Positions 8,479 through 27,555 of a stretch of 64,000 bases of DNA are shown here, one piece after another. The notes under the pieces were generated by a model, which was not told the origin of the DNA, did not search any database, and worked only from the letters and a program-made list of their open reading frames with translations. The stretch comes from Oceaniglobus roseus. GTDB taxonomy: Bacteria > Pseudomonadota > Alphaproteobacteria > Rhodobacterales > Rhodobacteraceae. Both the position numbers and the translations under genes were made by a program. The number at the start of each line of letters is the position of its first letter. The stretch's first letter is position 1. Location of the stretch: the NCBI RefSeq assembly GCF_002869745.1, contig NZ_PNOS01000008.1:1-64000 (forward strand), given 5' to 3'.

Positions 8479-9344
8479 CGTCTCGTCTTCCTCATGTAAT
8501 CCAGCATCGCCGCCATGTCGCGCCCGGCGTATCCACCGGCCTCGGCGGCCTTCAGCGTTTCCAGCGTCACCGCGCCCTGGGGCACCGCGACGCCATGTTC
8601 GGCGGCCAGTTCCGCCATCAGTCCCATGTCCTTCCGCGCCAGTGCCACGGTGAAGGTCACGTCGTGGTCAGCCTCGTGCAGGTAGAGCGGGCGGCGATAG
8701 CGCAGCATCGGCGCCGCCGCGGCCGAGGCCTCGATCACGTCGAAGGCGCGCTCGGGGTCGATCCCCGTCGCCTCGGCCAGCGTCATCGCCTCGGCCAGCG
8801 TCTGGTTCAGTCCGTGGATCAGGGCGTTGACGGACAGCTTCATCACCGCGCCCCGACCTGGCGCGCCGAGGCAGATCACCCTCCTGCCGAGGGCCTCCAG
8901 AACCGGCATCACCGGCGCCGCCTCGGCTTCGGTGCAGCCCGCCATGATCAGAAGCGCAGCCTCCGCCGCCGCCTGCGTGGCGCCCGACACCGGCGCGTCG
9001 ATCACCCGCGCGCCGTCCGGCACCCGCTGGACCAGCGAGGCGATGTGGCCGGGGCTCATGGTCCCCATCTCGAGGAACACCGACGCCCCCCGCCCGGCGA
9101 AAAGCCCGCCGGGGCCCAGGTGCACCGCCTCGGACGCGGCGTCGTCGGCCAGCATCGTGACCACGACCTCGCAGCCATCGGTCAGACCCACGGGCGCCGC
9201 GGCCACCGCGCATCCCGTCTCCTCCGCCAGCGCCTCCGCCGCCGCGGTCGTGCGGTTCCAAACCGTCACCGCGTGGCCCGCCGCGACGAGGTTCCTCACC
9301 ATCGGCGCGCCCATCCGCCCGAGCCCGGCAAACCCGACCCGCAT
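8475..9344 (-). CDS. NAD(P)-dependent oxidoreductase, 3-hydroxyisobutyrate dehydrogenase family
   Basis: The 289-residue protein starts MRVGFAGLGRMGAPMVRN, a Rossmann GxGxxG motif directly followed by the family's MG.PM signature. The substrate loop DAPVSGATQAAAEA (normally DAPVSGG) lies near residue 120, and the conserved lysine lies in MKLSVNALIHG. It probably oxidises or reduces a 3-hydroxyacid or a tartronate-semialdehyde-like product. Its ATG overlaps the stop of the ATPase gene by one base (TGATG), so it is translated with the importer. The exact substrate cannot be read from sequence. Confidence 0.88.
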   Translation of the reverse strand: MRVGFAGLGRMGAPMVRNLVAAGHAVTVWNRTTAAAEALAEETGCAVAAAPVGLTDGCEVVVTMLADDAASEAVHLGPGGLFAGRGASVFLEMGTMSPGHIASLVQRVPDGARVIDAPVSGATQAAAEAALLIMAGCTEAEAAPVMPVLEALGRRVICLGAPGRGAVMKLSVNALIHGLNQTLAEAMTLAEATGIDPERAFDVIEASAAAAPMLRYRRPLYLHEADHDVTFTVALARKDMGLMAELAAEHGVAVPQGAVTLETLKAAEAGGYAGRDMAAMLDYMRKTRR

Positions 9345-10858
9345 CACGCCACCTTCCCGGCGCCGATGCCGGAGATCGCCTGCACCAGGCTGTCCTCCGA
9401 CACCTCCGCGGCCGTGAAGATGCGCATCAGCTGACCGTGGTACATCGCCGCGATCCGGTCGCTGACCGACAGCACCTCGGGCATTTCCGAGCTGATGACG
9501 ATCACCGCATAGCCCTGCTTCGCCAGGTCCCGGATCAGCGCGTGGATCTCCGACTTCGAGCCCACGTCGATCCCCCGCGTCGGTTCGTCCACGATCAGCA
9601 CCTTCGGCTGCATCGACAGCCACTTGCCGATCACGATCTTCTGCTGGTTCCCGCCCGAGAGGTTGCCGACCGCCTGCCGCCATCCCGGCGTCTTGATCGC
9701 CAGCTTGTCGCGGTACTGGTCGAAGATCGCGATCTCGGCCCCGTCCGACACGAAGGGACCGGCGGTCAGGTCGCCCACCTGCGGCAGGGTCATGTTGTCC
9801 TTGCAGCTCATGCCCAGGATCAGCCCCTGCTCCTTCCGGCTTTCGGGCACCAGCGAGATGCCGAGCCGGATCGCGTCGCCGGGCGAGCGGATCGTCACCG
9901 CCTGCCCGTCCACCCGGATTTCCCCGGCCGAGGGCGCGCGCAGGCCGAACAGCGTCTCGGCGATCTCGGTGCGCCCGGCGCCGACCAGCCCGTAGAAGCC
10001 CAGCACCTCGCCCGCCCGCACCTCGAAGCCGACATCGCGGTAGAGCTTGCCGCAGGACAGCCCCTGCACCTCTATCGCCACCGGCCCCAGCTCGCCCGCC
10101 ACGATGTTGCGCGTCAGGTCCAGCGAGCGGCCGATCATCAGCTTCGTCACCTCGTCCTCGTCCGTCTCCTTCGTGATCAGCGTCCCGCGATGGGCGCCGT
10201 CCCGCAGAACCGAGATCCGGTCGGACAGGGTGAAGATCTCGTCCATCCGGTGCGAGATGTAGACGATCCCGACACCCCGCGCCGTCAGGTCGCGGATCAC
10301 GTCGAACAGCACGACCTTCTCGGCATCGGTGAGCGAGGCCGTCGGCTCATCGAAGATCACGGCCTTGGCGTCCACCGTTAGCGCGCGGGCGATCTCCACC
10401 ATCTGCTTGTTCGCGATGGACAGGTCGCCGACGATGGTCTTTGGGCCGAAACTGCAGTTCAGCCGCTTCAGGATCCCGCCCGCCCGGTCATAGAGCGTCG
10501 CCCAGTCCACCCGCCCGAAGCTCTTCCTCGGCAACTCGCCGAGGTAGATGTTCTCGGCCGCGGACAGCTCCTCGGCGAGGCTCAGCTCCTGGTGGATCAG
10601 CACCACGCCCTTCGCCTTGGCGTCCAGCGGGTTGCGCATCACCACCTTCTCTTCCTCGATGAAGATGGCGCCCTCGTTCGGCTGGTGGATGCCGGCCAGC
10701 ACCTTCATCAGCGTCGACTTGCCCGCCCCGTTCTCGCCCAGGAGCGCGTGGACCTCGCCGGGCCGCACGTCGAAGCTGACGCCGTCGAGGGCACGCACGC
10801 CGGGGAAGGTCTTGACGATCCCCGACAGCCGCAGGGCCGGTTTGCTCTCGGTCGTCAT
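9344..10858 (-). CDS. Sugar ABC transporter ATPase (CUT2, double nucleotide-binding domain)
   Basis: The 504-residue ATPase of RbsA/XylG type energises uptake of a sugar, polyol or related compound. The first domain has Walker A GENGAGKST and motif DLSIANKQMVEIARAL. The second domain has the degenerate Walker A GLVGAGRTE typical of CUT2 proteins, and signature LSGGNQQKIVIGKWL. Start ATG 10858 opens MTTESKPALRLSG and overlaps the permease stop by four bases. The gene order binding protein, SDR, permease, permease, ATPase is one operon on the minus strand. Confidence 0.95.
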   Translation of the reverse strand: MTTESKPALRLSGIVKTFPGVRALDGVSFDVRPGEVHALLGENGAGKSTLMKVLAGIHQPNEGAIFIEEEKVVMRNPLDAKAKGVVLIHQELSLAEELSAAENIYLGELPRKSFGRVDWATLYDRAGGILKRLNCSFGPKTIVGDLSIANKQMVEIARALTVDAKAVIFDEPTASLTDAEKVVLFDVIRDLTARGVGIVYISHRMDEIFTLSDRISVLRDGAHRGTLITKETDEDEVTKLMIGRSLDLTRNIVAGELGPVAIEVQGLSCGKLYRDVGFEVRAGEVLGFYGLVGAGRTEIAETLFGLRAPSAGEIRVDGQAVTIRSPGDAIRLGISLVPESRKEQGLILGMSCKDNMTLPQVGDLTAGPFVSDGAEIAIFDQYRDKLAIKTPGWRQAVGNLSGGNQQKIVIGKWLSMQPKVLIVDEPTRGIDVGSKSEIHALIRDLAKQGYAVIVISSEMPEVLSVSDRIAAMYHGQLMRIFTAAEVSEDSLVQAISGIGAGKVA

Positions 10859-11856
10859 ATCCGCAACTCCTCCTTGCCCTTCCGGTTCAGCTGCTTGTCG
10901 AGGTAGAGCACCGCGATCAGGATCAGGCCGATCACCAGGTTCACCGTCTCGGTGTCCGCGCCGATGTAGCCGAGACCCTTCCTCAGCAGCTGGATCGCGA
11001 TCACCCCCCCGAAGGTCGAGATGACCGAGCCGCGCCCGCCGGTCAGCTTCGTGCCGCCGAGGACCACCGCCGTGATCGCCCAGAGTTCGTAGAGCGAGCC
11101 GTCGTTCGGGTTCACCGAGCCGCTTTCGGAGTAGAACACCGCCGCCGACAGCGCGGCGAGGAAGCCGATGATCATGAAGTTGATCATCATGTGCGGCCCG
11201 ACGCGGATACTGGCGTTCACCGCCGCCTCGCGGTTGTCGCCGATGGCATAGGCGTTGCGCCCGTGCACGGTCCGGTTCAGCAGCCACCACAGCACCGCCG
11301 TGCAGCCCAGCAGGAACCACGTCGCCGTGTGCAGGCCCAGGGGCTGCGCCTCGGCGAAGTCGACCAGCGTCCAGTTCAGGTTCGAGGTCGGCTGTTCGCC
11401 GTTGTACATGAAGACGAGGCCCCGGTAGCCCAGCATCGACCCCAGCGTGACGATGAAGGCATCCACCCCCGTCTTCCACACGATCAGCCCGTTCAGCGCG
11501 CCAAGGGCCGTGCCCGTCGCCAGCGCCAGCAGCCACGAGACGGGGATCACCCAGTCGCCCAGACCCTCGAAGATCGGCCAGGTCATGCTGTCCAGGAGGA
11601 TCACCGCCGACAGGGCGAAGATCGCGCCGACCGAGAGGTCGATGTTGCCGTTGATCATCACGATGGTCATGCCAAGCGCGATGATCCCGATGGGCGCCGA
11701 CTGCTTCAGGAGCAGCAGCATGTTGTCGAGGTCCATGAAGGCGCCGTCGGACAGCGACAGGAACTTGCCCGCGACGCTGAAGAAGATCAGCTCCAGCACG
11801 ATGAAGCCCCAGATCGCCCCCTGCTTCAGGAGCCGCGCGGTGTTTTCGTTCTGCAT
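10855..11856 (-). CDS. Sugar ABC transporter permease (CUT2)
   Basis: The 333-residue inner-membrane permease of the RbsC family starts at ATG 11856 (MQNENTARLLKQG); an in-frame TTG at 11874 lies inside the upstream gene and is rejected. Hydrophobic helices alternate through the protein. The family motif GNIDLSVG (about residue 75) and GRGSVISTFGGVIAIQLLRKGL near the end identify it. It overlaps the ATPase gene by four bases and follows the sister permease, with which it probably forms a heterodimer. Confidence 0.94.
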   Translation of the reverse strand: MQNENTARLLKQGAIWGFIVLELIFFSVAGKFLSLSDGAFMDLDNMLLLLKQSAPIGIIALGMTIVMINGNIDLSVGAIFALSAVILLDSMTWPIFEGLGDWVIPVSWLLALATGTALGALNGLIVWKTGVDAFIVTLGSMLGYRGLVFMYNGEQPTSNLNWTLVDFAEAQPLGLHTATWFLLGCTAVLWWLLNRTVHGRNAYAIGDNREAAVNASIRVGPHMMINFMIIGFLAALSAAVFYSESGSVNPNDGSLYELWAITAVVLGGTKLTGGRGSVISTFGGVIAIQLLRKGLGYIGADTETVNLVIGLILIAVLYLDKQLNRKGKEELRI

Positions 11857-11866
11857 GGCGTGTCCC

Positions 11867-12841
11867 TCAGGCAATCGGCGACCAGAGCCGGCCGCGCTTG
11901 GCCGCGACGTCCAGCCAGACGGCGAGGATGATGATGACCCAGGTGACGACGTACTGGACGTAGAACTCGAGCCCGACCAGCAGCAGTCCGTTCTGGATGA
12001 AACCGAGGATCAGCACCCCGATCACCGTCTTGAACACGGTCCCCGATCCGCCGAGCAGCGAGGCGCCGCCAAGGATGACCGCCGCCAGGACCTCCAGCTC
12101 CAGCCCCTGCCCCACGGTGTTCTGCGAGCCGAGCGAGCGGCTGGCCTGCAGGAGACCCGCGCAGGCGACGCAGAAGGCCGAGATCAGGTAGGTGCAGAAG
12201 ACGATCCGCGCCCGCGGGATGCCCGAGAAGGTGGCCGCCGTCCCGTTACCGCCGACGGCATAGACCTTGCGCCCGAAGGGGGTCCGCGCCAAGAGCACGC
12301 TCAGCACCACGGCGAGCAGCACGAAGACCAGGATCGGCACCGGCACGCCCAGCATCTCGTCCTGACCGAAGATGCCGAACCAGGTGCCCTGCTTGTCGGC
12401 GATGTCCATGTTCTTGCCGCCCGACCAGGTCAGCGTCAGCCCGTGGATCGCCGACAGCATCCCGAGCGTCACGATCAGCGAGTTCAGCCGGAGATAGCCG
12501 ACGAGGAAGCCGATCAGCGCGCCAAGGCAGAGCGTCAGCGCGAACATCGCCGGAATGGCGAGCGCGGGGCCGATCTTGTCGTGCAGGTCCAGCACCACGA
12601 TGGTCGAGAAGGACATCATCGAGCCGACCGAGAGGTCGAGGTTGCCGCTGATGACCACGAAGGTCACGCCAAGCGCCATCACCCCGAGGATCGCCGAGGA
12701 GCGCACCACCCCCAGCACGTTGTCGATGTCCAGAAACCGCGCGTTCGCCAGCGCGAAGCCGAACATGAACAGCGCGAAGGCGATCAGGATTCCCTGTTTC
12801 GCCAGCACCTGCGTGATGTTCGACCATGTCAGAGCCGCCAT
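11867..12841 (-). CDS. Sugar ABC transporter permease (CUT2)
   Basis: This 324-residue membrane protein is the paralogue of the next permease, with motif GNLDLSVGSMMSFSTIV and the C-terminal GGSGTVFKTVIGVLILGFIQNGL. Around eight to ten membrane helices are visible. Having two different permeases is common in this transporter class. It is separated from the upstream SDR by a very GC-rich hairpin (12884-12901), which may set its expression below that of the binding protein and SDR. Confidence 0.94.
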   Translation of the reverse strand: MAALTWSNITQVLAKQGILIAFALFMFGFALANARFLDIDNVLGVVRSSAILGVMALGVTFVVISGNLDLSVGSMMSFSTIVVLDLHDKIGPALAIPAMFALTLCLGALIGFLVGYLRLNSLIVTLGMLSAIHGLTLTWSGGKNMDIADKQGTWFGIFGQDEMLGVPVPILVFVLLAVVLSVLLARTPFGRKVYAVGGNGTAATFSGIPRARIVFCTYLISAFCVACAGLLQASRSLGSQNTVGQGLELEVLAAVILGGASLLGGSGTVFKTVIGVLILGFIQNGLLLVGLEFYVQYVVTWVIIILAVWLDVAAKRGRLWSPIA

Positions 12842-12901: not shown

Positions 12902-13699
12902 TCAAACCAGTGTCATGCCGCCGTCTATCATGACGATCTGCCCGGTCATGTAGTCGCTGTCCCTCGAGGCGAGGAAGGTCGTCGTGCCGGTGATGTCCAC
13001 GGGCTGCGCGACGCGTCCCTTCAGGATGTCGGCCGAGAATTCCTCCATCGCCTGGCCGGGCCGCTCCGACGCGCCGATACTCATCAGGTCGCGGTCGACC
13101 TCCTCCCACATCTCGGTGGCGACGACACCGGGGGCGAAGCCCGTCACGGTGATGTCGTGCTTGGCGAGGTCGCGGGCGCCCGACTGGGTCAGCGACACCA
13201 CCGCCCATTTCGAGGCGCAGTAGGGCGCGACGTTGTCGAAGCCCTGGCGGCTGGCGATCGACGCGGTGTTGACGATCTTGCCGCCCGACCCTTGCGCGAT
13301 CATCTGCCGCGCCGCCTCCTGCATGCCGATCAGCACGCCGAGGCCGTTGATGTCCATTATGAACCTCCAGTTGTCCTCGGTGACATCCATGAAGTTCATC
13401 GGCTTGTTCACGCCCGCGTTGTTGAACACGACGTCGACCTTGCCGAAGGTGACCGCGGCATGGGCGATCATCGCCCGGACCTGGGCGCGGTCGGTGACGT
13501 TGACCGCCGCGTGGGTGACCTTGCCACCGGCCGCCCGGGCGCGGTCGGCGTTGGCCTTCGCCACCTCGGCCACCTTGTCGGCATTGATGTCGGCGAAACA
13601 GACGTCGGCGCCCTCGTCCAGCAGCGCCTCGCCGATGGCGCGCCCGATGCCCTGGGCTGCGCCGGTGACGATGCAGGATCGCCCGGAGACTCGTCCCAT
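12902..13699 (-). CDS. SDR family oxidoreductase
   Basis: A 265-residue short-chain dehydrogenase/reductase. It has the cofactor motif TGAAQGIG at residues 12-19, NNAG, a serine in TASIASRQG, and the catalytic YCASK tyrosine-lysine pair. The cofactor is probably NAD, judged from acidic residues (FADIN) at the end of strand two. ATG 13699 is used; it has GGGAGG about seven bases upstream, and GTG 13702 is the alternative. It sits second in the importer operon. It is clearly paralogous to the SDR at 16795 across the divergent promoter (shared NKP.-F-MD, EDNW, QMIAQG, DYMTGQ and IDGG positions), which argues for consecutive or stereospecific steps in one pathway. Confidence 0.93.
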   Translation of the reverse strand: MGRVSGRSCIVTGAAQGIGRAIGEALLDEGADVCFADINADKVAEVAKANADRARAAGGKVTHAAVNVTDRAQVRAMIAHAAVTFGKVDVVFNNAGVNKPMNFMDVTEDNWRFIMDINGLGVLIGMQEAARQMIAQGSGGKIVNTASIASRQGFDNVAPYCASKWAVVSLTQSGARDLAKHDITVTGFAPGVVATEMWEEVDRDLMSIGASERPGQAMEEFSADILKGRVAQPVDITGTTTFLASRDSDYMTGQIVMIDGGMTLV

Positions 13700-13732
13700 C
13701 ACAGGACCTCCCTCGAAAAGTGCAGGAAAGAA

Positions 13733-13775: not shown

Positions 13776-14741
13776 TCAGAACACGGGTTTCGTGAACTGA
13801 TCCATGTTGTCCTGAGTGATCTTCGGCGTGTCGAAGTAGTTCAGGAACGGGACATCCTTCTTGTCCAGGACGTCGATGGCGGTCTGCAGCGCCGCCTTTG
13901 CGTCGTCCACCGGCGACTGGTAGATCGAGCCCCAGTAGTCGCCCGCCTCCATCGCCTCGTAGCCCACCGCGAAGTTGGTCGCGCCGACGAAGATGATCCC
14001 GTCACGCCCCGCGGCCTTGGCGGCGTTCAGCGCGCCGACGCCCATGTTGTCGTCGCCGGCATAGACGCCGTCGATCTTGTCGTACTTCACCAGGAAGGCT
14101 TCCATGACCTTCTGCGACTTTTCGCGGTTCCAGTCGCCGGGCTGCGTCTCGACCAGCTTCACGTCCGGGCAGACCTCGGGCAGACGGTCCTCGAAGCCCT
14201 TCGCCCGCTCGATCGCGGTGGTATAGCCGGGCTGGCCCGAGATCTGGACGATCTGCGCGCTGTCCGCGATGCCCATGTCCTTGAACTTGTCGCACATGAT
14301 CTCGGCCGCGCGGGCGCCCTGGGTGATGTTGTCGGGGCCGGAGAAGGAGGCGACGAAGTCGAAGCCCTCCTCGGCGATGTTCGAATTGGTCACGATCACC
14401 GGGATGCCGGCCTTCTGCGCCTTCCTGACGGCCGGGATCACCGCCTCGCCGTTGGTCGGCCAGATGATGATGGCGTCGACCTGCTGCTGGATCAGGTCCT
14501 CGACCTGGGCGATCTGGCGGGCGACGTCGCCGCCGGCATCCAGCACCACGGCCTCGACGTTTTCGTTGGCGTTGGCGGCCTCGATGAAGGCCTTCTCGTA
14601 GGTGGTCTGATAGCTGTCGACGCCCACGTTGTTCTGGGTGATGCCGATCTTCATCTTGCCGTGGGCCTCCGCCAGCACGCCGGTCGCCGAAGCGGCCAGG
14701 GCGGTGGTGGCGACAAGCGCTGCCTTCAGGGTCGTGTTCAT
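13776..14741 (-). CDS. Sugar ABC transporter substrate-binding protein (ribose/RbsB type)
   Basis: The 321-residue periplasmic protein has a clear Sec signal peptide (MNTTLKAALVATTALAASAT, cleaved around GVLAEA). The mature part is a type I periplasmic-binding fold: MKIGITQNNVGVDSYQTTYEKAF opens it, and AIIIWPTNGEAVIPAVRKAQKAGIPV, GVYAGDDNMGVGAL and YQSPVDDAKAAL follow. GGAGGAGA lies about eight bases before ATG 14741. It is the first gene of the minus-strand operon. The ligand is unknown; the family binds sugars, polyols and also autoinducer-like compounds. Confidence 0.94.
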   Translation of the reverse strand: MNTTLKAALVATTALAASATGVLAEAHGKMKIGITQNNVGVDSYQTTYEKAFIEAANANENVEAVVLDAGGDVARQIAQVEDLIQQQVDAIIIWPTNGEAVIPAVRKAQKAGIPVIVTNSNIAEEGFDFVASFSGPDNITQGARAAEIMCDKFKDMGIADSAQIVQISGQPGYTTAIERAKGFEDRLPEVCPDVKLVETQPGDWNREKSQKVMEAFLVKYDKIDGVYAGDDNMGVGALNAAKAAGRDGIIFVGATNFAVGYEAMEAGDYWGSIYQSPVDDAKAALQTAIDVLDKKDVPFLNYFDTPKITQDNMDQFTKPVF

Positions 14742-14877
14742 CCGATTTCTCCTCCCAGGGTGTTGTTCTCTGTTCCTCGGTCGATCCCCGCTGCCCTCCT
14801 TGGCCCGGGGATTCGCCGGTCGGCCATGTGCCACGAACATGATTGCCGAGCGCCCCTGCCGTATCCGCCGCCAATAT

Positions 14878-14964: not shown

Positions 14965-16773
14965 ATGACCGAGTCGACACCGAAGTATTCCGATCAAACC
15001 GGACGATCCAAAGTGAATGTCATGCCCCCCCACGCCAGCACGCCCGGAAAGGTCGACGGCACCGCCGCCGACCCGGGCACGGCACCGGCCCGGGCGGAAC
15101 TTCTCACGGTGATCGAGTTTCTGGAAGCCCTGAGCGACGAGATCGACACCACGCTCGAACCCGCCGCGCCGAACCCCTACCTCAACATGAGCATCCACCT
15201 GCTGCGCTGCCACCTCGAAGGGCGCGCGGTCACCGCATCGGCCCTCGTCGCGGCCTCGGGCGTGCCCTATGCCACCGCAGTCCGCAAGCTGGCCGAGATG
15301 AAGGAGGCGGGGCTGATCGAGCAGCGGCCGCGCTCGCGCAGCGGCAAGAGCTTCTCGCTCCACCCCAGCCCGTCGCTGCTGGCCACCTGGACACGCCTTG
15401 CCGACCGCGTCCACCGCCTGGCCGGCACCCGCTTCGGCGGCGGTCAGGCCGCAGGCGGAGATTACTACTTCGGCGGCTCCTACATGGAGAGCCAGTCGAC
15501 GATCCAGCCGCCCCGGGTGCTGAGCCGGCCGCTGACCCTGCCCGGCGGCCTCCGCATCCTCGTGCACGGCGACCCGACCTTCATGGTCATGGAGAACCTG
15601 AAGCGCCAGTTCGAGCAGGTGATCGGCACCAAGATCAACCAGCGCGCCTTCTCCATCGACCGCCTCCGCGAAGAGACGCTGAGGAACGCCGCCCGCCCCG
15701 CCAGCCGCTACGACCTGATCGCGGTGGACCTGCCCTGGATCGGCGAGTTCGCCGAGCGGAACATCCTGCTGCCGCTCGATTCCGTCATGGACATCTCGCG
15801 GCTCGACCCGGCGGACTTCCACACCGCCGGCTGGCGCGCGGCCCACTGGGGCGGCCACCCCTACGGCGTGCCCAGCCAGACGACGCCCGAGCTGCTGTTC
15901 TACCGCCGCGACTGGTTCGCCGAGGCGGGGCTCGAGCCGCCTGCGACCACCGACCAGCTGCTCTCCGCGGCGAAGGCGCTGAGCGATCCGCGCCACGGCC
16001 GCTACGGCATTGCCTGGAACGCCGCGCGGGGCACGGCGCTCGGCCACACCTTCATGATGACCTGCGCCGATTTCGGCCAGCCGATCATCGAGATGCCGAA
16101 GAACGCCGGCGGCTACGACCTCGACAGCCTTGCCGCCACGACCGCGGTGCCCAGCATCGACACGCCCCGCGCGCGGGAGGCGGCGGAATACCTGATGGCG
16201 CTGCTCGAATTCTCGCCGCCCGACATCCTGTCGATGTCCTGGTACGAGCGCGTCCGCCCCTATGCGGCGGGCAGGATCGCCATGGCCTACGGCTATACCC
16301 TGCTCGCCCCCTATTTCGAGCTCGACCCCGGATCGCCCGCGAACGGACAGACCGGATACCTGCCCCACCCGGCGGGACCGCACGGCGCGCCGCTGGCCCC
16401 GGTCGGCGGCTATGTCCTCGGGATCCCGGCCAACCTCGCCGAGGAGCGGATCGAGGACGCGGTCGAGGCGCTGGTCGCCTTCACGTCCCCCGCGGCGCAG
16501 AAGCTCTACATCCAGAACGGCAGCCGCACCGCGCCGCGCTATTCCGTCGGCGCCGATCCCGAGGTGCGGCGCCTGTCGCCGATCTTCGAGGCGGTGGACG
16601 GCATGTCCTGGCGCGACGAGCTGCAGTTCTGGCCGCGCCCGCCGATCCCGGAGATCTGCGAGATCATCCGCATCTGCGGCACCGAGATGCACGACATGCT
16701 GCGCGGGGTGATCCCCCCGGCCGAGGCGCTGAGGCGCGCCCAGGCGGCAGCGGAAGCGGCCTTGCGAACATGA
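14965..16773 (+). CDS. Winged-helix regulator fused to an ABC solute-binding-protein domain
   Basis: The 602-residue protein has no signal peptide or membrane segment. After a disordered start, residues about 75-135 form a MarR/IclR-like winged helix (TASALVAASGVPYATAVRKL, then EMKEAGLIEQRPRSRSGKSF). Residues about 195-590 resemble a family-1 (COG1653-type) extracellular solute-binding protein: LRILVHGDPTFMVMENLKRQ at the start, and later YGVPSQTTPELLFYRRDWF, MSWYERVRPYAAGRIAM and VGGYVLGIPANL. A cytoplasmic binding-protein domain would serve as the effector sensor. GAGAGG lies seven bases before ATG 14965. It is divergent from the importer and first in the catabolic operon, fitting a local one-component regulator. 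Confidence 0.82.
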   Translation: MTESTPKYSDQTGRSKVNVMPPHASTPGKVDGTAADPGTAPARAELLTVIEFLEALSDEIDTTLEPAAPNPYLNMSIHLLRCHLEGRAVTASALVAASGVPYATAVRKLAEMKEAGLIEQRPRSRSGKSFSLHPSPSLLATWTRLADRVHRLAGTRFGGGQAAGGDYYFGGSYMESQSTIQPPRVLSRPLTLPGGLRILVHGDPTFMVMENLKRQFEQVIGTKINQRAFSIDRLREETLRNAARPASRYDLIAVDLPWIGEFAERNILLPLDSVMDISRLDPADFHTAGWRAAHWGGHPYGVPSQTTPELLFYRRDWFAEAGLEPPATTDQLLSAAKALSDPRHGRYGIAWNAARGTALGHTFMMTCADFGQPIIEMPKNAGGYDLDSLAATTAVPSIDTPRAREAAEYLMALLEFSPPDILSMSWYERVRPYAAGRIAMAYGYTLLAPYFELDPGSPANGQTGYLPHPAGPHGAPLAPVGGYVLGIPANLAEERIEDAVEALVAFTSPAAQKLYIQNGSRTAPRYSVGADPEVRRLSPIFEAVDGMSWRDELQFWPRPPIPEICEIIRICGTEMHDMLRGVIPPAEALRRAQAAAEAALRT

Positions 16774-16794: not shown

Positions 16795-17604
16795 ATGGAC
16801 CCCAATCGGCTCAAGGGTAAGAACATTCTGATCACCGGCGCGGCCCGCGGCATGGGCGCGGCCAACGCCGAAGCCTTCGCGGCCCAGGGCGCCAACGTCT
16901 GCCTCGGCGACCTCGACGGCGACGCGGCCGAAGCCATGGCCGGGAAGATCAACGGCGCGGGCGGCGGCAAGGCGATCGCGGTGAGGATGGACGTGACGAA
17001 GCGCGCCGACAACGCCGCCGCCGTCGCCGCCACGGTCGAGGCCTTCGGCTCGATCAACGTCGGACTGTTCAACGCGGGGCTCAACAAGCCGCGGTTCTTC
17101 ATGGACATCGACGAGGACAACTGGGACCTCATCATGAACGTGAACACCAAGGCGATGTGGCTCGGGATGCAGGAGACCGCGAATCAGATGATCGCCCAGG
17201 GTCCGATGGAGGGGCATCCCTACAAGCTGATCAACGTCGGCTCCATCGCCTCGAGAAAGCCCCTGGTGGATGTGACGGTCTACTGCACCTCGAAATACGG
17301 CTGCCTCGCCCTGACCCACTGCGGCGCCATCGCGCTTTCCGAGCACAACATCACCGTCAACGGCTACGCCCCCGGCGTCGTCGTGACCCCGCTGTGGGAG
17401 CAGCTCGACAAGGATCTCGTGGACATCGGCTTCAAGCAGAAGGAAGGCCAGGCCTACGAGGACATCGTCCGCGACGCGCTCCAGATCAAGCGGGTCTCCT
17501 ATCCGAACGACATCACCGGCACCGCGTCCTTCCTCGCCAGCGACGACAGCGACTACATGACCGGCCAGATGATCCACATCGACGGCGGCTGGTGCATCCA
17601 GTGA
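16795..17604 (+). CDS. SDR family oxidoreductase
   Basis: A 269-residue short-chain dehydrogenase with cofactor motif TGAARGMG, LGDLDGD at the end of the second strand (NAD preference), NAGLN, the serine in VGSIASRKP, and YCTSKYG as catalytic Tyr-Lys. AAGGGAGG precedes ATG 16795. The final residues DYMTGQMIHIDGGWCIQ are typical. It is paralogous to the SDR at 12902-13699, on the other arm of the divergent locus. It follows the regulator by 21 bases and is likely co-transcribed with it. Confidence 0.93.
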   Translation: MDPNRLKGKNILITGAARGMGAANAEAFAAQGANVCLGDLDGDAAEAMAGKINGAGGGKAIAVRMDVTKRADNAAAVAATVEAFGSINVGLFNAGLNKPRFFMDIDEDNWDLIMNVNTKAMWLGMQETANQMIAQGPMEGHPYKLINVGSIASRKPLVDVTVYCTSKYGCLALTHCGAIALSEHNITVNGYAPGVVVTPLWEQLDKDLVDIGFKQKEGQAYEDIVRDALQIKRVSYPNDITGTASFLASDDSDYMTGQMIHIDGGWCIQ

Positions 17605-17688: not shown

Positions 17689-18987
17689 ATGTCACGCGCA
17701 TTGATGCCGAACCTGCTGACCCCCAAGGACCTGGAACCCAACTGGGAATGGCGCGAGCGCCTGCCCGCCTGGGGCCACACCTCGGTCGATTTCGAACGCC
17801 GGATCGACCACGACCGCCTGCGCCGCTACCGCCTCGCGCGCACCCGCCAGTCGCTCCAGAACTCGCAGGCGGGCTCGCTGCTGCTGTTCGACGTGAACAA
17901 CATCCGCTACGTCACCGCCACCAAGATCGGCGAGTGGGAGCGGGACAAGATGTGCCGCTTCTGCCTGCTGACCGGCGACGACAGCCCCTATGTCTGGGAC
18001 TTCGGCTCGGCCGCCGTCCACCACAAGCGCTATTCCGACTGGCTGGAACCCGACCACTGCCTTGCCGGCGTCGTCGGCATGCGCGGCACGATCCCGCCCG
18101 ACTTCGGGCTGATGCAGAAATACGCCAAGATGATCGCCCAGCTGATCAAGGACGCGGGCATGGCCGACATGCCCGTCGGCGTGGACTATGCCGAAACCGC
18201 GATGTTCCACGCACTCCAGGCGGAAGGGATCAAGGTGGTGGACGGCCAGCAGATCATGCTGGCGGCGCGCGAGATCAAGAACTGGGACGAAATCCAGCTT
18301 CTGACCCAGGCGGCCAGCATGGTCGACGGCGTCTATCACATGATCTACGAGGAGCTGAAGCCGGGCGTGCGCGAGAACGACATCGTCGCGCTCAGCAACA
18401 AGATGCTCTACGAGATGGGCAGCGACGACGTCGAGGCGATCAACGCCATCTCGGGCGAGCGCTGCAACCCGCATCCCCACAACTTCACCGACCGGCTGAT
18501 CCGGCCCGGCGATCAGGCGTTCTTCGACATCCTCCAGTCCTATCAGGGGTACAGAACGTGCTACTACCGCACGTTCAACGTCGGCCGCGCGACGCCCTCG
18601 CAGAACGACGCCTACGTGAAGGCGCGGGAATGGATCGACGCCTCGATCGCGATGATCAAGCCGGGCGTGACGACCGACAAGGTGGCCGAGGTCTGGCCCA
18701 CCGCGGAATCGCTCGGCTTTCCGAACGAGGATGCCGCCTTCGGCCTCCAGTTCGGGCACGGCCTGGGCCTTGCGCTTCACGAACGCCCGATCATCAGCCG
18801 CGCGATCAGCCTCGACCACCCGATGGAGATCCAGACCGGCATGGTCTTCGCGCTGGAAACCTACTGCCCCGCGACGGACGGCTATTCCGCCGCCCGGATC
18901 GAGGAAGAGGTGGTGGTGACCGAGACGGGGTGCGAGGTCATCTCGCTGTTCCCGGCGGAAGAGCTGCCGATCGCCAACCGCTACTGA
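17689..18987 (+). CDS. M24 family (Xaa-Pro peptidase / creatinase-like) hydrolase with altered metal site
   Basis: The 432-residue protein has an N-terminal creatinase-like domain (SLLLFDVNNIRYVTATKIGEW) and a C-terminal pita-bread domain. Four of five metal ligands align: Asp280 in FFDIL, His357 in FGHGLG, Glu390 in FALETY, Glu405 in RIEEEV. The second aspartate is replaced by Cys291 in YRTCYYRTF, eleven residues after Asp280, exactly the PepP spacing. It may therefore be a hydrolase or lyase that works with an unusual metal or none, as creatinase does. It is related to but distinct from DddP. The position between an SDR and 2-oxo-acid dehydrogenase genes suggests C-N or C-X bond cleavage in a catabolic pathway. 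Confidence 0.85.
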   Translation: MSRALMPNLLTPKDLEPNWEWRERLPAWGHTSVDFERRIDHDRLRRYRLARTRQSLQNSQAGSLLLFDVNNIRYVTATKIGEWERDKMCRFCLLTGDDSPYVWDFGSAAVHHKRYSDWLEPDHCLAGVVGMRGTIPPDFGLMQKYAKMIAQLIKDAGMADMPVGVDYAETAMFHALQAEGIKVVDGQQIMLAAREIKNWDEIQLLTQAASMVDGVYHMIYEELKPGVRENDIVALSNKMLYEMGSDDVEAINAISGERCNPHPHNFTDRLIRPGDQAFFDILQSYQGYRTCYYRTFNVGRATPSQNDAYVKAREWIDASIAMIKPGVTTDKVAEVWPTAESLGFPNEDAAFGLQFGHGLGLALHERPIISRAISLDHPMEIQTGMVFALETYCPATDGYSAARIEEEVVVTETGCEVISLFPAEELPIANRY

Positions 18988-19001: not shown

Positions 19002-19067
19002 GTCATCCTCGGGCCTGACCCGAGGATCTCCCGGCCAGCAGATCCTCGGGTCGAGCCCGAGGATGAC
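19002..19067. repeat. REP/BIME-like compound palindrome
   Basis: Two 28-base arms (19002-19029 and 19040-19067) are inverted copies matching at 26 of 28 positions, separated by ten bases. Each arm itself contains the palindrome CCTCGGG...CCCGAGG. The element fills the space between the M24 gene and the E1 alpha gene. It would fold into a strong mRNA structure. Confidence 0.7.
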
Positions 19068-19092
19068 GGCCTGCATCTTTCGAGGACCCGCC

Positions 19093-20064
19093 ATGTCCAA
19101 GACGAACACCGAAGACTACCTGCGCATGTATACCCAGATGGTGCGGATCCGCGCCTTCGAGGACAACGCCAACCAGCTTTACCTCTCGGCCAAGATGCCG
19201 GGCCTGACCCACATGTATTCGGGCCAGGAGGCGGTCGCCGTCGGCATCTGCGAGGCGCTGACCCCCGAGGACAAGATCACCTCGACCCACCGCGGCCACG
19301 GCCATTGCGTGGCCAAGGGCGCGAACTTCAGGGAGATGTTCTGCGAGCTTCTCGGCAAGGAAGAGGGATATTGCCGCGGCAAGGGCGGCTCGATGCACAT
19401 CGCCGACCAGGGCAACGGCAACCTCGGGGCCAATGCCATCGTCGGCGGCTCCATGGGCATCGCCACGGGCGCCGCGATGTCGGCGAAGATGCAGAAGAAC
19501 GGCCGCGTCGCCGTCTGCTTCTTCGGTGACGGCGCGACGGCCCAGGGGCTCTGGTACGAGGTGATGAACATGGCCGCCCTCTGGGGCCTGCCGGTGATCT
19601 ATGCCTGCGAGAACAACGGCTATTCCGAGTACACCAAGACCGAGGAGATCGCCGCCGGCTCGATCACCGCGCGCGCCGAGGCCTTCGGGATCGAGAGCTT
19701 CGAGGTCGACGGGCAGGACGTGCTGGCGGTGAACCAGCTGACCCAGAAGCTGGTCGAGCGGTGCAGGAAGGGCGAAGGGCCGTTCTTCATGAATCTCAAG
19801 ACCTACCGCTACCACGGCCACCACGTGGGCGACATCAACCGCGACTACTACCGCGCGAAGGACGAGGAGGCCGAGTGGAAGACCACCCGCGACCCGATCA
19901 CCAACTTCGGCAAGTGGCTGGAATCCGAGAAGATCGTCACCACCGACGAGCTGGTGGAGATCAACGAGAAGATCCGGAAGGAGGCGGAAGACGCCGTCGC
20001 CTACGCGCTGGACGCGAAATATCCCGACGTGTCCGAAGTCGACATGCACGTCTACGCGGCCTGA
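19093..20064 (+). CDS. 2-oxo-acid / acetoin dehydrogenase E1 component, alpha subunit
   Basis: A 323-residue thiamine-diphosphate-dependent subunit close to AcoA/PdhA. ATG 19093 is chosen (MSKTNTEDYLRMYTQMVRI); an upstream in-frame ATG lies in the repeat. The TPP motif runs GDGATAQG to ENNGYSEYT. HRGHGHCVAKG and the phosphorylation-loop-like YRYHGHHVGD fit the family. Acetoin, pyruvate and branched-chain enzymes look alike at this level; AcoA-like is my best guess because of the short N-terminus and gene order. The beta subunit follows after 11 bases. Confidence 0.9.
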   Translation: MSKTNTEDYLRMYTQMVRIRAFEDNANQLYLSAKMPGLTHMYSGQEAVAVGICEALTPEDKITSTHRGHGHCVAKGANFREMFCELLGKEEGYCRGKGGSMHIADQGNGNLGANAIVGGSMGIATGAAMSAKMQKNGRVAVCFFGDGATAQGLWYEVMNMAALWGLPVIYACENNGYSEYTKTEEIAAGSITARAEAFGIESFEVDGQDVLAVNQLTQKLVERCRKGEGPFFMNLKTYRYHGHHVGDINRDYYRAKDEEAEWKTTRDPITNFGKWLESEKIVTTDELVEINEKIRKEAEDAVAYALDAKYPDVSEVDMHVYAA

Positions 20065-20075
20065 GGAGAGACGAG

Positions 20076-21071
20076 ATGCGAGAGATCACCCTGTCCAAGG
20101 CCGTGAACGAGGCAATCGCCGAGGAGATGCGCCGCGACCCCACCGTGTTCCTGCTGGGCGAGGACGTGGCCGAGGCCGGCACGCCCTTCAAGGTCCTGTC
20201 GGGCCTTGTCGAGGAGTTCGGCACCGAGCGCGTCATCGACACGCCGATTTCCGAGCCGGGATTCGTCGGCCTCGCCGTCGGCGCCGCGATGACCGGCACC
20301 CGGCCCATCGTCGACCTGATGTTCGGCGATTTCATCTTCCTCGTCATGGACCAGCTCTGCAACCAGGCAGCCAAGACCCACTACATGTCCGGCGGCAAGC
20401 TGAACGTGCCGATGGTGCTGCGGACCAACATGGGGGCGACACGGCGGTCTGCCGCCCAGCACTCGCAGTCGCTGCATGCGCTGGTGGCCCATATCCCGGG
20501 GCTGAAGGTGGCGATGCCGTCCTCGGCCTACGAGGCGAAGGGGCTGATGAAGACCGCGATCCGGGACAACAACCCGGTCGTGATCTTCGAAGACAAGCTG
20601 ATGTACCAGGACAAGGCCCCGGTGCCGGAGGAGGAATACCTGATCCCCTTCGGCGTCGCCAACATCAAGCGCGAGGGGACGGACATCACCCTGATCGCCA
20701 CCTCCTCCATGGTGCAAGTGGCCGAGAAGGCCGCCGAGATCCTGGAAAAGGAGGGCATCAGCGCCGAGGTCATCGACCCCCGCACCATCGTGCCGCTGGA
20801 CGAGGAGACGCTGCTGAAGTCGGTCAGGAAGACCTCCCGCGCCATCGTCATCGACGAGGGGCACCAGAGCTATGGCATCACCGGAGAGATCGCGTCGCGG
20901 CTGACCGAGAAGGCGTTCTACCACCTCGACGCGCCGGTGATGCGGATGGGAGCCATGGACGTGCCGGTGCCGTTCTCGCCCGCGCTGGAGGATGTCACCG
21001 TTCCGACGCCCGAGGGGGTCGCGGCCAATGCGCGCAAGCTTTGCGGCGGCGAGTTGATCCATGCCGCATGA
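20076..21071 (+). CDS. 2-oxo-acid / acetoin dehydrogenase E1 component, beta subunit
   Basis: A 331-residue E1 beta with the conserved opening REITLSKAVNEAIAEEMRRD, VFLLGEDVAEAGTPFKVLSGL, and ETPISEPGF-like DTPISEPGFVGLAVGAAMTG. The middle has FGDFIFLVMDQLCNQAAK and the C-terminal transketolase domain has IDEGHQSYGITGEIASRL. GAGGAG lies upstream of ATG 20076. It overlaps the lipoyl protein gene by 11 bases, so the complex subunits are translationally coupled. Confidence 0.92.
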   Translation: MREITLSKAVNEAIAEEMRRDPTVFLLGEDVAEAGTPFKVLSGLVEEFGTERVIDTPISEPGFVGLAVGAAMTGTRPIVDLMFGDFIFLVMDQLCNQAAKTHYMSGGKLNVPMVLRTNMGATRRSAAQHSQSLHALVAHIPGLKVAMPSSAYEAKGLMKTAIRDNNPVVIFEDKLMYQDKAPVPEEEYLIPFGVANIKREGTDITLIATSSMVQVAEKAAEILEKEGISAEVIDPRTIVPLDEETLLKSVRKTSRAIVIDEGHQSYGITGEIASRLTEKAFYHLDAPVMRMGAMDVPVPFSPALEDVTVPTPEGVAANARKLCGGELIHAA

Positions 21072-22419
21072 AGTGATCATGCCGGCCCTCGGGATGGCCC
21101 AGGACAGCGGCGTCATCGTCTCGTGGCTGAAGCAGCCCGGCGACGCCGTGGCCGAGGGCGACGCGCTGTTCGAGGTCGAAACCGACAAGGCGACAATGGA
21201 GGTCGAGGCCCAGGGCAGCGGCTATCTCACCGGCGTGACCGCCAGTGCCGGGGACGCCGTGCCGGTGGGCCAGGTGATCGCCATGATCACCGAGACGGCA
21301 GAGGAGGACTCGGCCCCTTCCCCCGCGAACGGAGCCGAAGCCCCGCCCGACGCTGAACCGGCTTCGGGGGACAGGACAATGCCCGAGGGGAAGACCATCA
21401 TCATGCCGGCCCTCGGCATGGCGCAGGACACCGGGCTTCTCGTCAGCTGGCAGAAGCAGCCCGGCGATGCCGTCTCCGCCGACGACACGCTGTTCGAGGT
21501 CGAGACCGACAAGGCCGCCATGGAGGTCCCCGCGGGCTTCGACGGCTACGTCGCCGCCCTGCTGGCCGAGCCGGGGGAAGAGATCCCGGTCGGCGGTTCC
21601 GTGGCGATCATCAGCGCCAAGAAACCCGGCGCGCCCTTCATGCAGAGCGCGAAGGCCGGGGGCGCTCCGGCGGCCAAGGCGCCCGGGAAAGCCGCCGAGG
21701 CGAAAGCGCCGGAAGCCAAGGCCGAGGCGTCCGCGAAACCGGCGAAGGAAGCAACGCCTGCCATGGCACGCAGCGACGGCCGCATCCTCGCCTCGCCGAA
21801 GGCGCGCAGGCTGGCGCTGGAGCGGGGACTCGACCTGCGGCGGCTGGCCGAGGCGGGGCATCCGCAGCCGTTCCACGTCAAGGATCTGGAAACCCTTGCC
21901 GCCCTGCCCGCCGAGGCGCCGGGGACGGAGACCTCCACGGCGGCCGGCACCGCGCCCGCCGCAGCATCCCGCCGCCTCTGCGCCGAGGTGCCGGAAGCGG
22001 GCTTCACGGCCTTCTGCGCCTGGGCGAAGGACAAGCTCGGGATCACCGACGCCGCATCGCTTCTCGCGGGGTTCGCCGCCGCGGGGCTCAGGACCGGTGA
22101 CAGCCCCCTGACCATCGCCGTCAGCGCCTTCGGCAGCACACGGCACTACGCCGACCCAGACCGCCCGTGGCTGGGCCGGGCCAGGGCCGAGGCCCCGGAG
22201 GGCACGCCGCATCTCCTGCTGCGCGACCTGCGCCACGCGCCGCTCTCCTTCGTCTCGCTCGGGGCCGAAGACTGCCCCGTCCTGACCCTGACCCGGCACG
22301 GCGAGACCCTGACCATCACCCTCGAGTGCGGCGCCGGTCAGCTCGGGGCCGAGGCGGCGCTCACCCTTCTCACCGGCTTCGCGGGGAGGATGGAGCAGCC
22401 GCTCCGCCACCTGCTCTAA
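21061..22419 (+). CDS. Double-lipoyl E2-like protein with degenerate acyltransferase domain
   Basis: The 452-residue protein carries two lipoyl domains with attachment lysines Lys43 and Lys151 in ETDKATMEV and ETDKAAMEV. An Ala/Pro/Lys linker follows, then a peripheral-subunit-binding domain near residues 240-278 (RILASPKARRLALERGLDLR). Residues about 300-452 align loosely with an E2 catalytic domain but lack the DHR..(D/N)G active-site motif; the matching place reads LECGAGQLGAEAAL. It can therefore carry the acyl group but probably not catalyse transfer. The catalytic partner is the lipoyl-less E2 at 23894, two genes on. Confidence 0.85.
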   Translation: MPHEVIMPALGMAQDSGVIVSWLKQPGDAVAEGDALFEVETDKATMEVEAQGSGYLTGVTASAGDAVPVGQVIAMITETAEEDSAPSPANGAEAPPDAEPASGDRTMPEGKTIIMPALGMAQDTGLLVSWQKQPGDAVSADDTLFEVETDKAAMEVPAGFDGYVAALLAEPGEEIPVGGSVAIISAKKPGAPFMQSAKAGGAPAAKAPGKAAEAKAPEAKAEASAKPAKEATPAMARSDGRILASPKARRLALERGLDLRRLAEAGHPQPFHVKDLETLAALPAEAPGTETSTAAGTAPAAASRRLCAEVPEAGFTAFCAWAKDKLGITDAASLLAGFAAAGLRTGDSPLTIAVSAFGSTRHYADPDRPWLGRARAEAPEGTPHLLLRDLRHAPLSFVSLGAEDCPVLTLTRHGETLTITLECGAGQLGAEAALTLLTGFAGRMEQPLRHLL

Positions 22420-22435
22420 CGAAACGGAGTTCACC

Positions 22436-23884
22436 ATGGACGCCACGTTCCAGATCGACCACACCGACCTCTTCATCGACGGCAAGTGGAAGCAGGGCGC
22501 CGAGGGCGCGCGCTTCGACGTCATCAACCCGGCCAACGAGACGGTGCTCGCCTCCGTCGCCTCGGCCGAGATCGCCGATGCCGACGCGGCCCTCGACGCT
22601 GCCGAAGCGGCGATGAAGGACTGGGCCGCCCGCACGCCCCGCCAGCGCTCGGAAGTGCTGCGCAAGGCGTGGGAGCTGATGGCCGCGCGGCTCGACCATT
22701 TCGCCCGGCTCATCACGCTGGAGAACGGCAAGGCCAGGAACGACGCCATGGGCGAGGCGACCTATGCCGCCGAGTTCTTCCGCTGGTTCGCCGAGGAAGC
22801 GGTGCGCGCCGATGGCCTGCTGACCCACGCCCCCGCCTCGGGCGCGCGGATCATGGTGCAGCACAAGCCCGCGGGCCTCGCCGTGCTGGTGACGCCCTGG
22901 AACTACCCCGCCGCCATGGGCACGCGGAAGATCGCCCCGGCGCTGGCCGCGGGCTGCGGCGTCATCATCAAGCCCGCCTCGGAAACGCCCCTGACCATGC
23001 TCGCGCTGATGCCGCTGCTGGCCGAGGCCGGGGTGCCGGACGGCCTTGTCAACGTGCTGCCCAGCCGCCGCACCGGCGCGCTGGTCGATCACATGCTGCA
23101 CGATCCGCGGGTGCGCGTCGTCAGCTTCACCGGCTCCACCGGGGTCGGCCGAAAGCTGCTGCACTCCGCCGCCGACCAGGTGCTGAAACCGGCGATGGAG
23201 CTTGGCGGCAACGCGCCGCTGATCGTGTTCGAGGACGCCGACCTCGACACGGCCGTCACCGGCACGATGCTCGCCAAGATGCGGAACCTCGGCGAGGCCT
23301 GCACGGCGGCGAACCGGATCTACGTCCACGCCGACATCGCAGAAGCCTTCACCGCGAAGCTGACCGAGGCGATGGCGAAGCTGAAGGTCGGCGACGGCAC
23401 CGATCCCAGCGTCGACGTCGGCCCGCTGGTCAACGCCGACACCCGCGACAAGGTGGCGGCCTTCGTGGCCGATGCCGTGGCGAAGGGCGCGAAGATCGAA
23501 TGCGGCGGCAAGGCGCCCGAGGGCAAGGGGTATTACTACCCGCCCACGGTGCTGTCGAACGTTCCCGAGACCGCCGACTGCGTCCATGACGAGATCTTCG
23601 GCCCCGTCGCCGCGCTCCAGACCTTCACCGACACCGAGGACGTGATCCGCCGCGCGAACGACACCGAGTACGGCCTTGTCGCCTATGTGTTTTCCGAGGA
23701 TTTCAAGCGCGCGCTGCAGGTCTGCGAGCGGCTGGACTACGGCATGGTCGGGCTGAACCGCGGCCTCGTCTCGGACCCCGCGGCGCCCTTCGGCGGCACC
23801 AAGCAGTCGGGCCTCGGGCGCGAGGGGGGGCACGAGGGGATGCTGGAATTCATGGAAAGCCAGTACATCTCGGCAAGCTGGTGA
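22436..23884 (+). CDS. NAD(P)-dependent aldehyde dehydrogenase (succinate-semialdehyde dehydrogenase-like)
   Basis: A 482-residue aldehyde dehydrogenase of the GabD class. Visible motifs are TPWNYPAAMGTRKIAPALAAG, the glycine turn FTGSTGVG, the general-base glutamate in MELGGNAPLIVFEDAD, and catalytic cysteine in GEACTAANRIYVH. The end GLNRGLVSDPAAPFGGTKQS is typical of succinate/glutarate semialdehyde enzymes. It lies between the two halves of the E2, so it probably oxidises an aldehyde intermediate of the same pathway. An intact ribosome site precedes ATG 22436. Confidence 0.93.
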   Translation: MDATFQIDHTDLFIDGKWKQGAEGARFDVINPANETVLASVASAEIADADAALDAAEAAMKDWAARTPRQRSEVLRKAWELMAARLDHFARLITLENGKARNDAMGEATYAAEFFRWFAEEAVRADGLLTHAPASGARIMVQHKPAGLAVLVTPWNYPAAMGTRKIAPALAAGCGVIIKPASETPLTMLALMPLLAEAGVPDGLVNVLPSRRTGALVDHMLHDPRVRVVSFTGSTGVGRKLLHSAADQVLKPAMELGGNAPLIVFEDADLDTAVTGTMLAKMRNLGEACTAANRIYVHADIAEAFTAKLTEAMAKLKVGDGTDPSVDVGPLVNADTRDKVAAFVADAVAKGAKIECGGKAPEGKGYYYPPTVLSNVPETADCVHDEIFGPVAALQTFTDTEDVIRRANDTEYGLVAYVFSEDFKRALQVCERLDYGMVGLNRGLVSDPAAPFGGTKQSGLGREGGHEGMLEFMESQYISASW

Positions 23885-23893
23885 GGAGCTGAC

Positions 23894-24784
23894 ATGGCTG
23901 ACGTGATCGCAAGCCCCTCGGTCCGGGCGATGGCCCGCAACAAGGGCATCGACATCGACCGGCTGGCCGAGGGCCTCGGCCGCCAGACCATCGGGCCGGA
24001 GGATCTGGGCGGCGGTGCCGCCCCTGCATCTACCGCGCCTGCTGCGCCGGATGCTGCGAATTACTGGGACGTGGACCATACCGGGTACGGCCCCGTGACC
24101 GAGGAGCCGATGAGCCGCTTCGCGCAGGCCGCCGCCCGCAACCTCGCCGCCGCGCAGGCGCTGATCCCGGCGGTGACCCACCACGACCGCGCGGACGTGA
24201 CGGCGATCGAGGCGCTCAGGGCCGAGTTGAAGCCGGAAGCGCAGGCGCGCGGCGTCCGGCTGACCGCCCTCGCCTTCCACGTCAAGGCGCTGGCCCGGGC
24301 GCTGCGCGAGTTCCCCAAGTTCAACGCCGCGCTCTCGACCGATGGCAAGACGCTGTACCTGCGGGAGTACGTGCACATCGGCATCGCCGTGGACACGGCG
24401 CATGGGCTGATGGTGCCGGTGATCCGTGACGCCGACCGGAAGGGCCTCTGGCGGATCGCGGCCGAGATCGCCGACCTTGCCTTCCGCGCCCAAGGCCGCA
24501 AGATCAGGCAGGACGAGATGGGCGGCGCGTCGATGACCATCACCAATCTCGGCGGCATCGGCGGCACGGCCTTCACCCCCATCGTCAACCCGCCCGAGGT
24601 TGCGATCCTCGGGATCACCCGCACCGTCACGGAAACGGTCTGGGACGGCGAAACGCCGCGTCCCGTCCCCATGGTGCCGCTCGACCTCAGCTACGACCAT
24701 CGCGTCATCAACGGCGCCGACGCCGCCCGATTCCTCGGCTTCTGCGGCCAGTTGCTGGGCGAACCCTTCAGAATGATGTTCTGA
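23894..24784 (+). CDS. E2 dihydrolipoamide acyltransferase lacking a lipoyl domain
   Basis: The 296-residue protein begins directly with a peripheral-subunit-binding domain (residues about 5-37, ASPSVRAMARNKGIDIDRLA), a short Ala/Pro linker, and a complete 2-oxo-acid dehydrogenase acyltransferase domain (about 60-296). The active-site motif YDHRVINGA places the catalytic His at 269. MTITNLGGIGGTAFTPIVNPPEVAILG is also conserved. No lipoyl domain exists, so substrate must be delivered by the double-lipoyl protein encoded at 21061. GAGGAG precedes the ATG. It is the last gene of the operon. Confidence 0.93.
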   Translation: MADVIASPSVRAMARNKGIDIDRLAEGLGRQTIGPEDLGGGAAPASTAPAAPDAANYWDVDHTGYGPVTEEPMSRFAQAAARNLAAAQALIPAVTHHDRADVTAIEALRAELKPEAQARGVRLTALAFHVKALARALREFPKFNAALSTDGKTLYLREYVHIGIAVDTAHGLMVPVIRDADRKGLWRIAAEIADLAFRAQGRKIRQDEMGGASMTITNLGGIGGTAFTPIVNPPEVAILGITRTVTETVWDGETPRPVPMVPLDLSYDHRVINGADAARFLGFCGQLLGEPFRMMF

Positions 24785-24935: not shown

Positions 24936-25024
24936 TCCGAACCGTCGTCCCCTGAGGGGGCAGGCCCGCGGGCCGGCCAACGCAAACGAAACGCCCCATT
25001 CCTTCCAACAAGGAGGTGACGGCC

Positions 25025-26587: not shown

Positions 26588-26618
26588 GGCACAGGTAGAA
26601 CAGCGCAGGATCCCGCCC

Positions 26619-27551: not shown

Positions 27552-27555
27552 GCCG

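Follow-up and report, generated by a model that had tools for sequence, protein, structure and literature searches.

The M24 gene and its divergent neighbours

In the window, the whole stretch of 64,000 nucleotides that was analysed, the reading frame at 17689..18987 of the forward strand is open throughout and encodes a protein of 432 amino acids, with a GAGGAG motif immediately 5′ of its ATG. The translation, the Pfam profile PF00557 and a Foldseek search with a moderate-confidence domain model identify the product as an M24 (pita-bread) enzyme. Directly upstream on the same strand lies a gene for an SDR dehydrogenase (16795..17604; Pfam adh_short), preceded by a gene for a putative regulator of 602 amino acids (14965..16773) with a weak MarR-like HTH match and an SBP_bac_1 match. 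The lack of any strongly hydrophobic stretch in this HTH-SBP protein suggests a regulator that resides in the cytoplasm and senses through its solute-binding domain. Downstream of the M24 gene, the forward strand encodes E1 alpha (19063..20064) and E1 beta (20067..21071) of a 2-oxo acid dehydrogenase, both with an unsure start, a protein that carries two lipoyl domains and weakly matches an E3-binding domain (21061..22419), an aldehyde dehydrogenase that is succinate-semialdehyde-like at a score below the cut-off (22436..23884), and an E2 acyltransferase catalytic domain (23894..24784). The E2 component is split over 21061-24784 into a lipoyl/E3-binding gene and an acyltransferase gene, and the aldehyde dehydrogenase gene lies between them.

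The regulator through E2 form the forward set of two divergent gene sets; the other runs on the reverse strand from 14840. It starts with a CUT2-type sugar-binding protein (13776..14840; Peripla_BP_4); the solved structures closest to it are of sugar-binding proteins, several of which are named CUT2. Then come a second SDR (12902..13702), acetoin reductase- or L-iditol dehydrogenase-like at scores below the cut-offs, two ABC permeases of the BPD_transp_2 type (11867..12841 and 10855..11874), an ABC ATPase with two ABC_tran domains (9344..10858), a dehydrogenase resembling HIBADH or tartronate-semialdehyde reductase with an unsure start (8475..9383), and a ThuA-domain protein (7771..8478). On the other side of the island, 25016-31080 encodes an Opp-type ABC importer together with an HTH_20-type regulator. 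In the 80 genome-contig loci from the best 80 of 403 relatives, no OppA/B/C-like genes were found, and one plasmid (L148) was the sole other case in which they adjoined the island.

Linkage was counted in those genome-contig loci, from the best 80 of 403 relatives, that had enough flanking DNA. Where the upstream flank reached 900 bases or more, the upstream SDR was present in 78 of 78 loci; where it reached 2.7 kb or more, a homologue of the HTH-SBP regulator was present in 76 of 76. The CUT2 permease at 11867..12841 and the CUT2 binding protein were each found in 68 of 69 loci, the second SDR in 62 of 73 (missing in 11), and the HIBADH-like protein, at 50% identity or more, in only 29 of 69. 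E1 alpha was found in 50 of 74 loci. The full set of E1 alpha, E1 beta, aldehyde dehydrogenase and E2 catalytic domain was present in 41 of 62 loci and E1 alpha was absent from 20 of the 62; all 20 loci without E1 alpha carried at least two SDR-like matches just 3′ of the M24 gene. In one such locus (L008), the genes that follow M24 encode two SDRs, an FMN-dependent dehydrogenase and a flavoprotein. Taken together, these results show a conserved island with two forms, in which the M24 gene is followed either by the E1, lipoyl, aldehyde dehydrogenase and E2 genes or by two further SDRs. The preliminary description had read the gene context as pointing to small-molecule catabolism, and the linkage of CUT2 sugar ABC, SDR and 2-oxo acid dehydrogenase genes supports that reading. 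In marine bacteria, the genes around M24 appear suited to the import and degradation of a small sugar-like molecule.

A cysteine at a metal-ligand position

The M24 protein scored 126.6 bits against Peptidase_M24 (PF00557; cut-off 23), which places it in this Pfam family, while its Creatinase_N match was weak (20.7 bits, cut-off 22). Among the NCBIfam models, the top match was DddP (NF043017; 122 bits, cut-off 600) and the second best was the ectoine hydrolase DoeA (TIGR02993, 66.9 bits against 613; NF038259, 58.2 against 575). The scores for PRK10879 (PepP; 33.4 against 465), PepQ_Arch (66.7 against 630) and MetAP I (56.1 against 171.35) also fell below the cut-offs. DddP-type DMSP lyase, ectoine hydrolase and PepP or MetAP were therefore ruled out as family names. 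In public records the gene product is named Xaa-Pro peptidase or M24 metallopeptidase. The genome of the window holds eight M24 genes in all by the Pfam model, and four other places in it match the window protein at 24-28% identity.

The full-length AlphaFold model, built from 32 near-identical rows as input, had a pLDDT of 49. A model of the domain at residues 175-432 reached a pLDDT of 65, which was the best of five (the other four, 37-48). This domain model matched 4ege in Foldseek (E 4.7e-14) and aligned with 2zsg over 218 residues (Z 13.6, rmsd 4.8), which places it in the pita-bread fold at that model confidence. Its closest fold matches are Xaa-Pro peptidases, and creatinase and EutD/DoeA structures are also among the matches; by sequence, the best solved relative is DddP.

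In a MAFFT alignment with PepP of E. coli MG1655, residues D280, C291, R294, H357, E390 and E405 of the window protein stand opposite D-D-R-H-E-E. Asp280 (codon 18526..18528), His357 (18757..18759), Glu390 (18856..18858) and Glu405 (18901..18903; all on the forward strand) had been put forward as M24 ligands, and the alignment with PepP confirms these four as kept ligand positions. It had also been noticed that Cys291 (18559..18561, forward strand), 11 residues past Asp280, takes the place of a PepP aspartate. This proved correct, and the residue corresponds to Asp271 of PepP, where the PDB titles give the numbering Asp260, Asp271, His354 and Glu383, and to Asp307 of DddP. In PepP, Asp271 and Glu406 bridge the two metals. 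In HMMER alignments, C291 lies opposite Asp in the solved DddP chains, at residue 307 counted along 4rzy. We take 4rzy and 4b28 to be DddP structures; 4s00 and 4s01 are DddP by their PDB titles.

An excerpt of PMC4108388 gives the ligands of RdDddP as Asp295, Asp297, Asp307, His371, Glu406 and Glu421. In the HMMER alignments, the window protein departs from this set of six at two places: Cys291 stands at Asp307, and the Asp-x-Asp pair is without its second Asp. It shares with DddP similarity over most of its length, the His and two Glu ligands and what appears to be small-molecule rather than peptide chemistry. With PepP and PepQ it shares the pita-bread fold, a second ligand position 11 residues past the first, an Arg three residues further on, and the His and Glu...Glu motifs, whereas it differs from them in the cysteine at the Asp271 place and in its oxidative catabolic gene context. 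Compared with the Asp-Asp-His-Glu-Glu set of intact dinuclear M24 enzymes, four residues are present and the second Asp is Cys291.

Judged by these alignments, the change is real: one ligand position has gone from Asp to Cys, and the rest of the site is intact. Cys291 probably serves as a thiolate metal ligand, and a cysteine in place of the bridging aspartate would suit a thiophilic metal or hold the two metals together less tightly. B1 metallo-beta-lactamases, whose fold is unrelated to that of M24, provide a precedent for Cys-for-Asp, having Cys in a dinuclear site where their relatives have a bridging Asp.

Conservation and spread of the cysteine clade

An alignment of homologues had been suggested as the check on Cys291. 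Clade membership was set at 34% identity or more and above 150 bits, and the residue itself was not a criterion. C291 was invariant in all 113 distinct clade proteins from all loci fetched, the window protein included (35-100% identity), and no other Asp was found at this place. Asp was found in all 22 matches below the 34% identity/150-bit line. C291 and the other ligand positions were also identical in 81 of 81 orthologous loci (that of the window and the best 80 of 403 relatives). The diversity of the 113 proteins is carried by 22 of them, as 91 share 80% identity or more with the window protein; 10 lie at 60-80%, 4 at 50-60% and 8 at 35-37%. The hosts include alphaproteobacteria, another proteobacterial lineage, actinobacteria and haloarchaea. 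One protein from the other proteobacterial lineage has 63% identity; Streptomyces, Paenarthrobacter and Rhodococcus plasmid proteins have 52-62%, alphaproteobacterial Cys-type paralogues 37%, and six haloarchaeal plasmid proteins about 36%. A 14-row alignment over this identity range gave the motif GY(R/K)(T/S)CYYRT, in which C291, Y292, Y293, R294 and T295 are invariant. In two genomes, a Cys-type paralogue of 37% identity accompanies the orthologue (L124, 9285-10541; L125, 9162-10418), and the one in L124 adjoins PPDK-like, UPF0261, Gfo/Idh and zinc ADH genes.

Metal-free M24 enzymes of the creatinase type are defined by loss of metal ligands, and no such loss was seen here, since the four other ligand positions are invariant in 113 of 113 clade proteins. 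DoeA/EutD and creatinase are likewise M24-fold enzymes of small-molecule catabolism, and the window protein differs from them in keeping four of the five metal-ligand positions. Position 364, at the place of PepP His361, varies within the clade (His, Trp or Tyr). As controls, 31 M24 proteins outside the clade were used (30 of 37 M24 matches, and L203): 29 have Asp at the Cys291 position, one has Glu and one has Ala, and the latter two, as aligned, also lack other ligands. In a 68-row tree, one branch splits 44 Cys rows from 24 Asp rows with an SH-aLRT of 97, by a quick method that gave long-branch warnings and with the site column included. The tree took in 12 of the 80 genome-contig loci; near-copies (L115-L121, L150-L154), exact duplicates, matches below 60 bits and rows shorter than 330 amino acids were left out. 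By the conservation, the tree and the controls, the change is old, is confined to one group among the proteins examined, and left the rest of the site intact. In these proteins the aligned cysteine is invariant across two domains of life, which makes the observation stronger than first noted.

Among seven island proteins compared in loci from the best 80 of 403 relatives, the M24 protein varies least. Its median identity to the window protein was 95.4% (80 loci), compared with 89.4% for E1 beta (50 loci), 87.9% for the SDR (78), 86.9% for the aldehyde dehydrogenase (48), 80.6% for E1 alpha (54), 71.6% for E2 (45) and 68.6% for the regulator (77). The median identity at four-fold degenerate sites was similar for all seven (0.53-0.62). 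Since these sites are only about 60% identical, the conservation of the M24 protein reflects strong constraint and not recent copying or transfer, and on these comparisons it is under strong purifying selection.

In sampled genomes, scored on up to 8 first-look candidates per genome for the family, 6 for the class and 4 for the phylum, the M24 gene was found in at least 34 of 198 genomes of the family, an orthologue at 64% identity or more in at least 11 of 289 genomes of the class, and a match to the clade profile at E 1e-70 in at least 6 of 398 genomes of the phylum, the genome of the window included each time. The gene was not found in the only other genome of the genus sampled. Among 16 of the 50 matching plasmid records, the island was seen on plasmids of Phaeobacter, Tritonibacter, Marinovum, Pacificitalea and strain SC52. 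Viral contigs scanned with the clade profile gave 45 pattern matches and no relative. In the literature searched, by titles and abstract openings and partly only among the matches listed, none of the papers describes the subfamily, a Cys at this M24 ligand or the island.

Substrate clues and a proposed route

In a genome of 1.41 Mb (G030), the gene order is SDR, M24, E1 alpha, E1 beta, lipoyl protein and aldehyde dehydrogenase. The operon in G030 continues without large gaps into genes for a Gfo/Idh protein, an IolC-type kinase (296 bits, cut-off 300), an IolB-type isomerase (152 bits, cut-off 205), a class II aldolase and an aldose epimerase; the IolC- and IolB-type scores are both below their cut-offs. 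Upstream of the operon, IolE scored 401 bits, above its cut-off of 290. A second genome (G259) has this same gene order. The lipoyl protein of G030 is a lone short domain (L126, about 12470-12700), and an E2 catalytic domain was not found in the G030 stretch examined (L126). IolD scored above its cut-off in three of nine tested genomes with the M24 gene, G030 included, and not in the genome of the window. Because G030 has IolD elsewhere, the M24 enzyme is not needed there as an IolD substitute, and a role as IolD replacement was ruled out by these matches.

LacI-type regulators were found near the M24 gene in Streptomyces and in the other proteobacterium (L164). Among the haloarchaeal and Paenarthrobacter neighbours are flavin-dependent enzymes, EthD, VOC, RidA and enoyl-CoA hydratase instead of sugar genes. 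E1 alpha/beta-like genes were found in two of the six haloarchaeal loci (L142, L146), and an NAD(P)-dependent oxidoreductase is named in the records of five of the six. The HIBADH-like protein of the window had no match in the six haloarchaeal loci (tblastn, E 1e-8). In Paenarthrobacter sp. R1, the M24 gene lies near a flavin reductase annotated as SulR of sulfonamide breakdown, and in P. ureafaciens near genes for a flavin reductase, RidA, enoyl-CoA hydratase and an NAD(P)-dependent oxidoreductase. In the part of PMC10873849 covered by a term look-up, 'peptidase', 'M24' and 'RidA' are not mentioned.

For the window and its close relatives, we lean towards a polyol- or cyclitol-like substrate on the basis of the CUT2 ABC genes, the polyol/2,3-butanediol dehydrogenase-like SDRs, ThuA and the inositol-pathway genes of one lineage. 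The gene surroundings in haloarchaea and Paenarthrobacter, which do not resemble those of sugar metabolism, count against a sugar role. Of the other compounds named in the preliminary description, amides may be substrates, and no specific support was found for betaines or sulfonium compounds.

We propose, with a probability of roughly one half and from sequence and gene context, that the clade is a thiolate-ligated M24 subfamily of metal-dependent hydrolases or lyases acting on a small oxidised polyol- or cyclitol-like molecule. The substrate would be imported by the CUT2 ABC transporter, its hydroxyl groups would be oxidised by the SDRs, and the M24 enzyme would cleave the oxidised molecule at its Asp/Cys/His/Glu/Glu metal site. 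The E1/lipoyl/E2 complex and the succinate-semialdehyde-type aldehyde dehydrogenase would then take over the product; in islands of the other form, this would fall to the further SDRs and, in L008, also to the FMN-dependent 2-hydroxyacid dehydrogenase. The reaction may be a hydrolysis or an elimination, as either is compatible with the sequence. Besides the haloarchaeal and Paenarthrobacter surroundings, points against this proposal are the setting of the 37% paralogue in L124, the IolD of G030, the IolB- and IolC-type scores there, and the loci without a HIBADH-like match or the second SDR. In the Thermotoga inositol pathway (IolM/IolN), two oxidations of a cyclitol are followed by a ring-opening hydrolase; by description, this would match the island's logic of SDR, SDR and hydrolase.

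In another reading, the M24 enzyme binds little or no metal and the cysteine acts as catalytic nucleophile or acid/base. Creatinase and ectoine hydrolase are described as functioning without a dinuclear centre, and the fold matches to creatinase and EutD/DoeA, the second-best NCBIfam match to ectoine hydrolase and the variable position 364 all fit this reading; we consider it unlikely given that the other four ligands never vary in the clade, whereas the two controls without this Asp had lost several. Oxidoreductive glycoside cleavage, in which oxidation comes first and elimination follows, is a model for a DddP-like lyase that would perform a base-promoted beta-elimination after the SDRs have oxidised the substrate. 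DddP as both the top NCBIfam match and the best solved relative by sequence, together with the ThuA gene of the window and the Gfo/Idh genes of relatives, is consistent with such a lyase, but at 122 bits against 600, and with neither the second Asp of the Asp-x-Asp pair nor the later Asp, we find it quite unlikely. Least probable is that the enzyme is an ordinarily active peptidase despite the cysteine, either a dipeptidase or a form of aminopeptidase P, as public annotation, the fold matches to Xaa-Pro peptidases and the downstream Opp-type importer would suggest, since the PepP, PepQ and MetAP scores are far under the cut-offs, the linked genes serve oxidation and the metabolism of 2-oxo acids, and that importer is not a regular neighbour of the island.

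Returning to the thiolate-ligated hydrolase or lyase, a more far-reaching form of the proposal, which we regard as very unlikely, is that this deep M24 subfamily of bacteria and archaea would use its Cys thiolate ligand for retro-Claisen C-C hydrolysis of an SDR-made cyclitol or polyol diketone. Such a reaction would be new to the fold and part of an unrecognised carbohydrate-type route, carried on roseobacter plasmids and, within an operon, by an alphaproteobacterial lineage with a streamlined genome (1.4 Mb). The M24 gene, which is labelled as proteolysis in the plasmid records examined, marks a catabolic island. With four ligands intact, the invariant Asp-to-Cys swap is a clean experiment of nature on the way in which one first-shell ligand sets metal choice and chemistry in the M24 fold.
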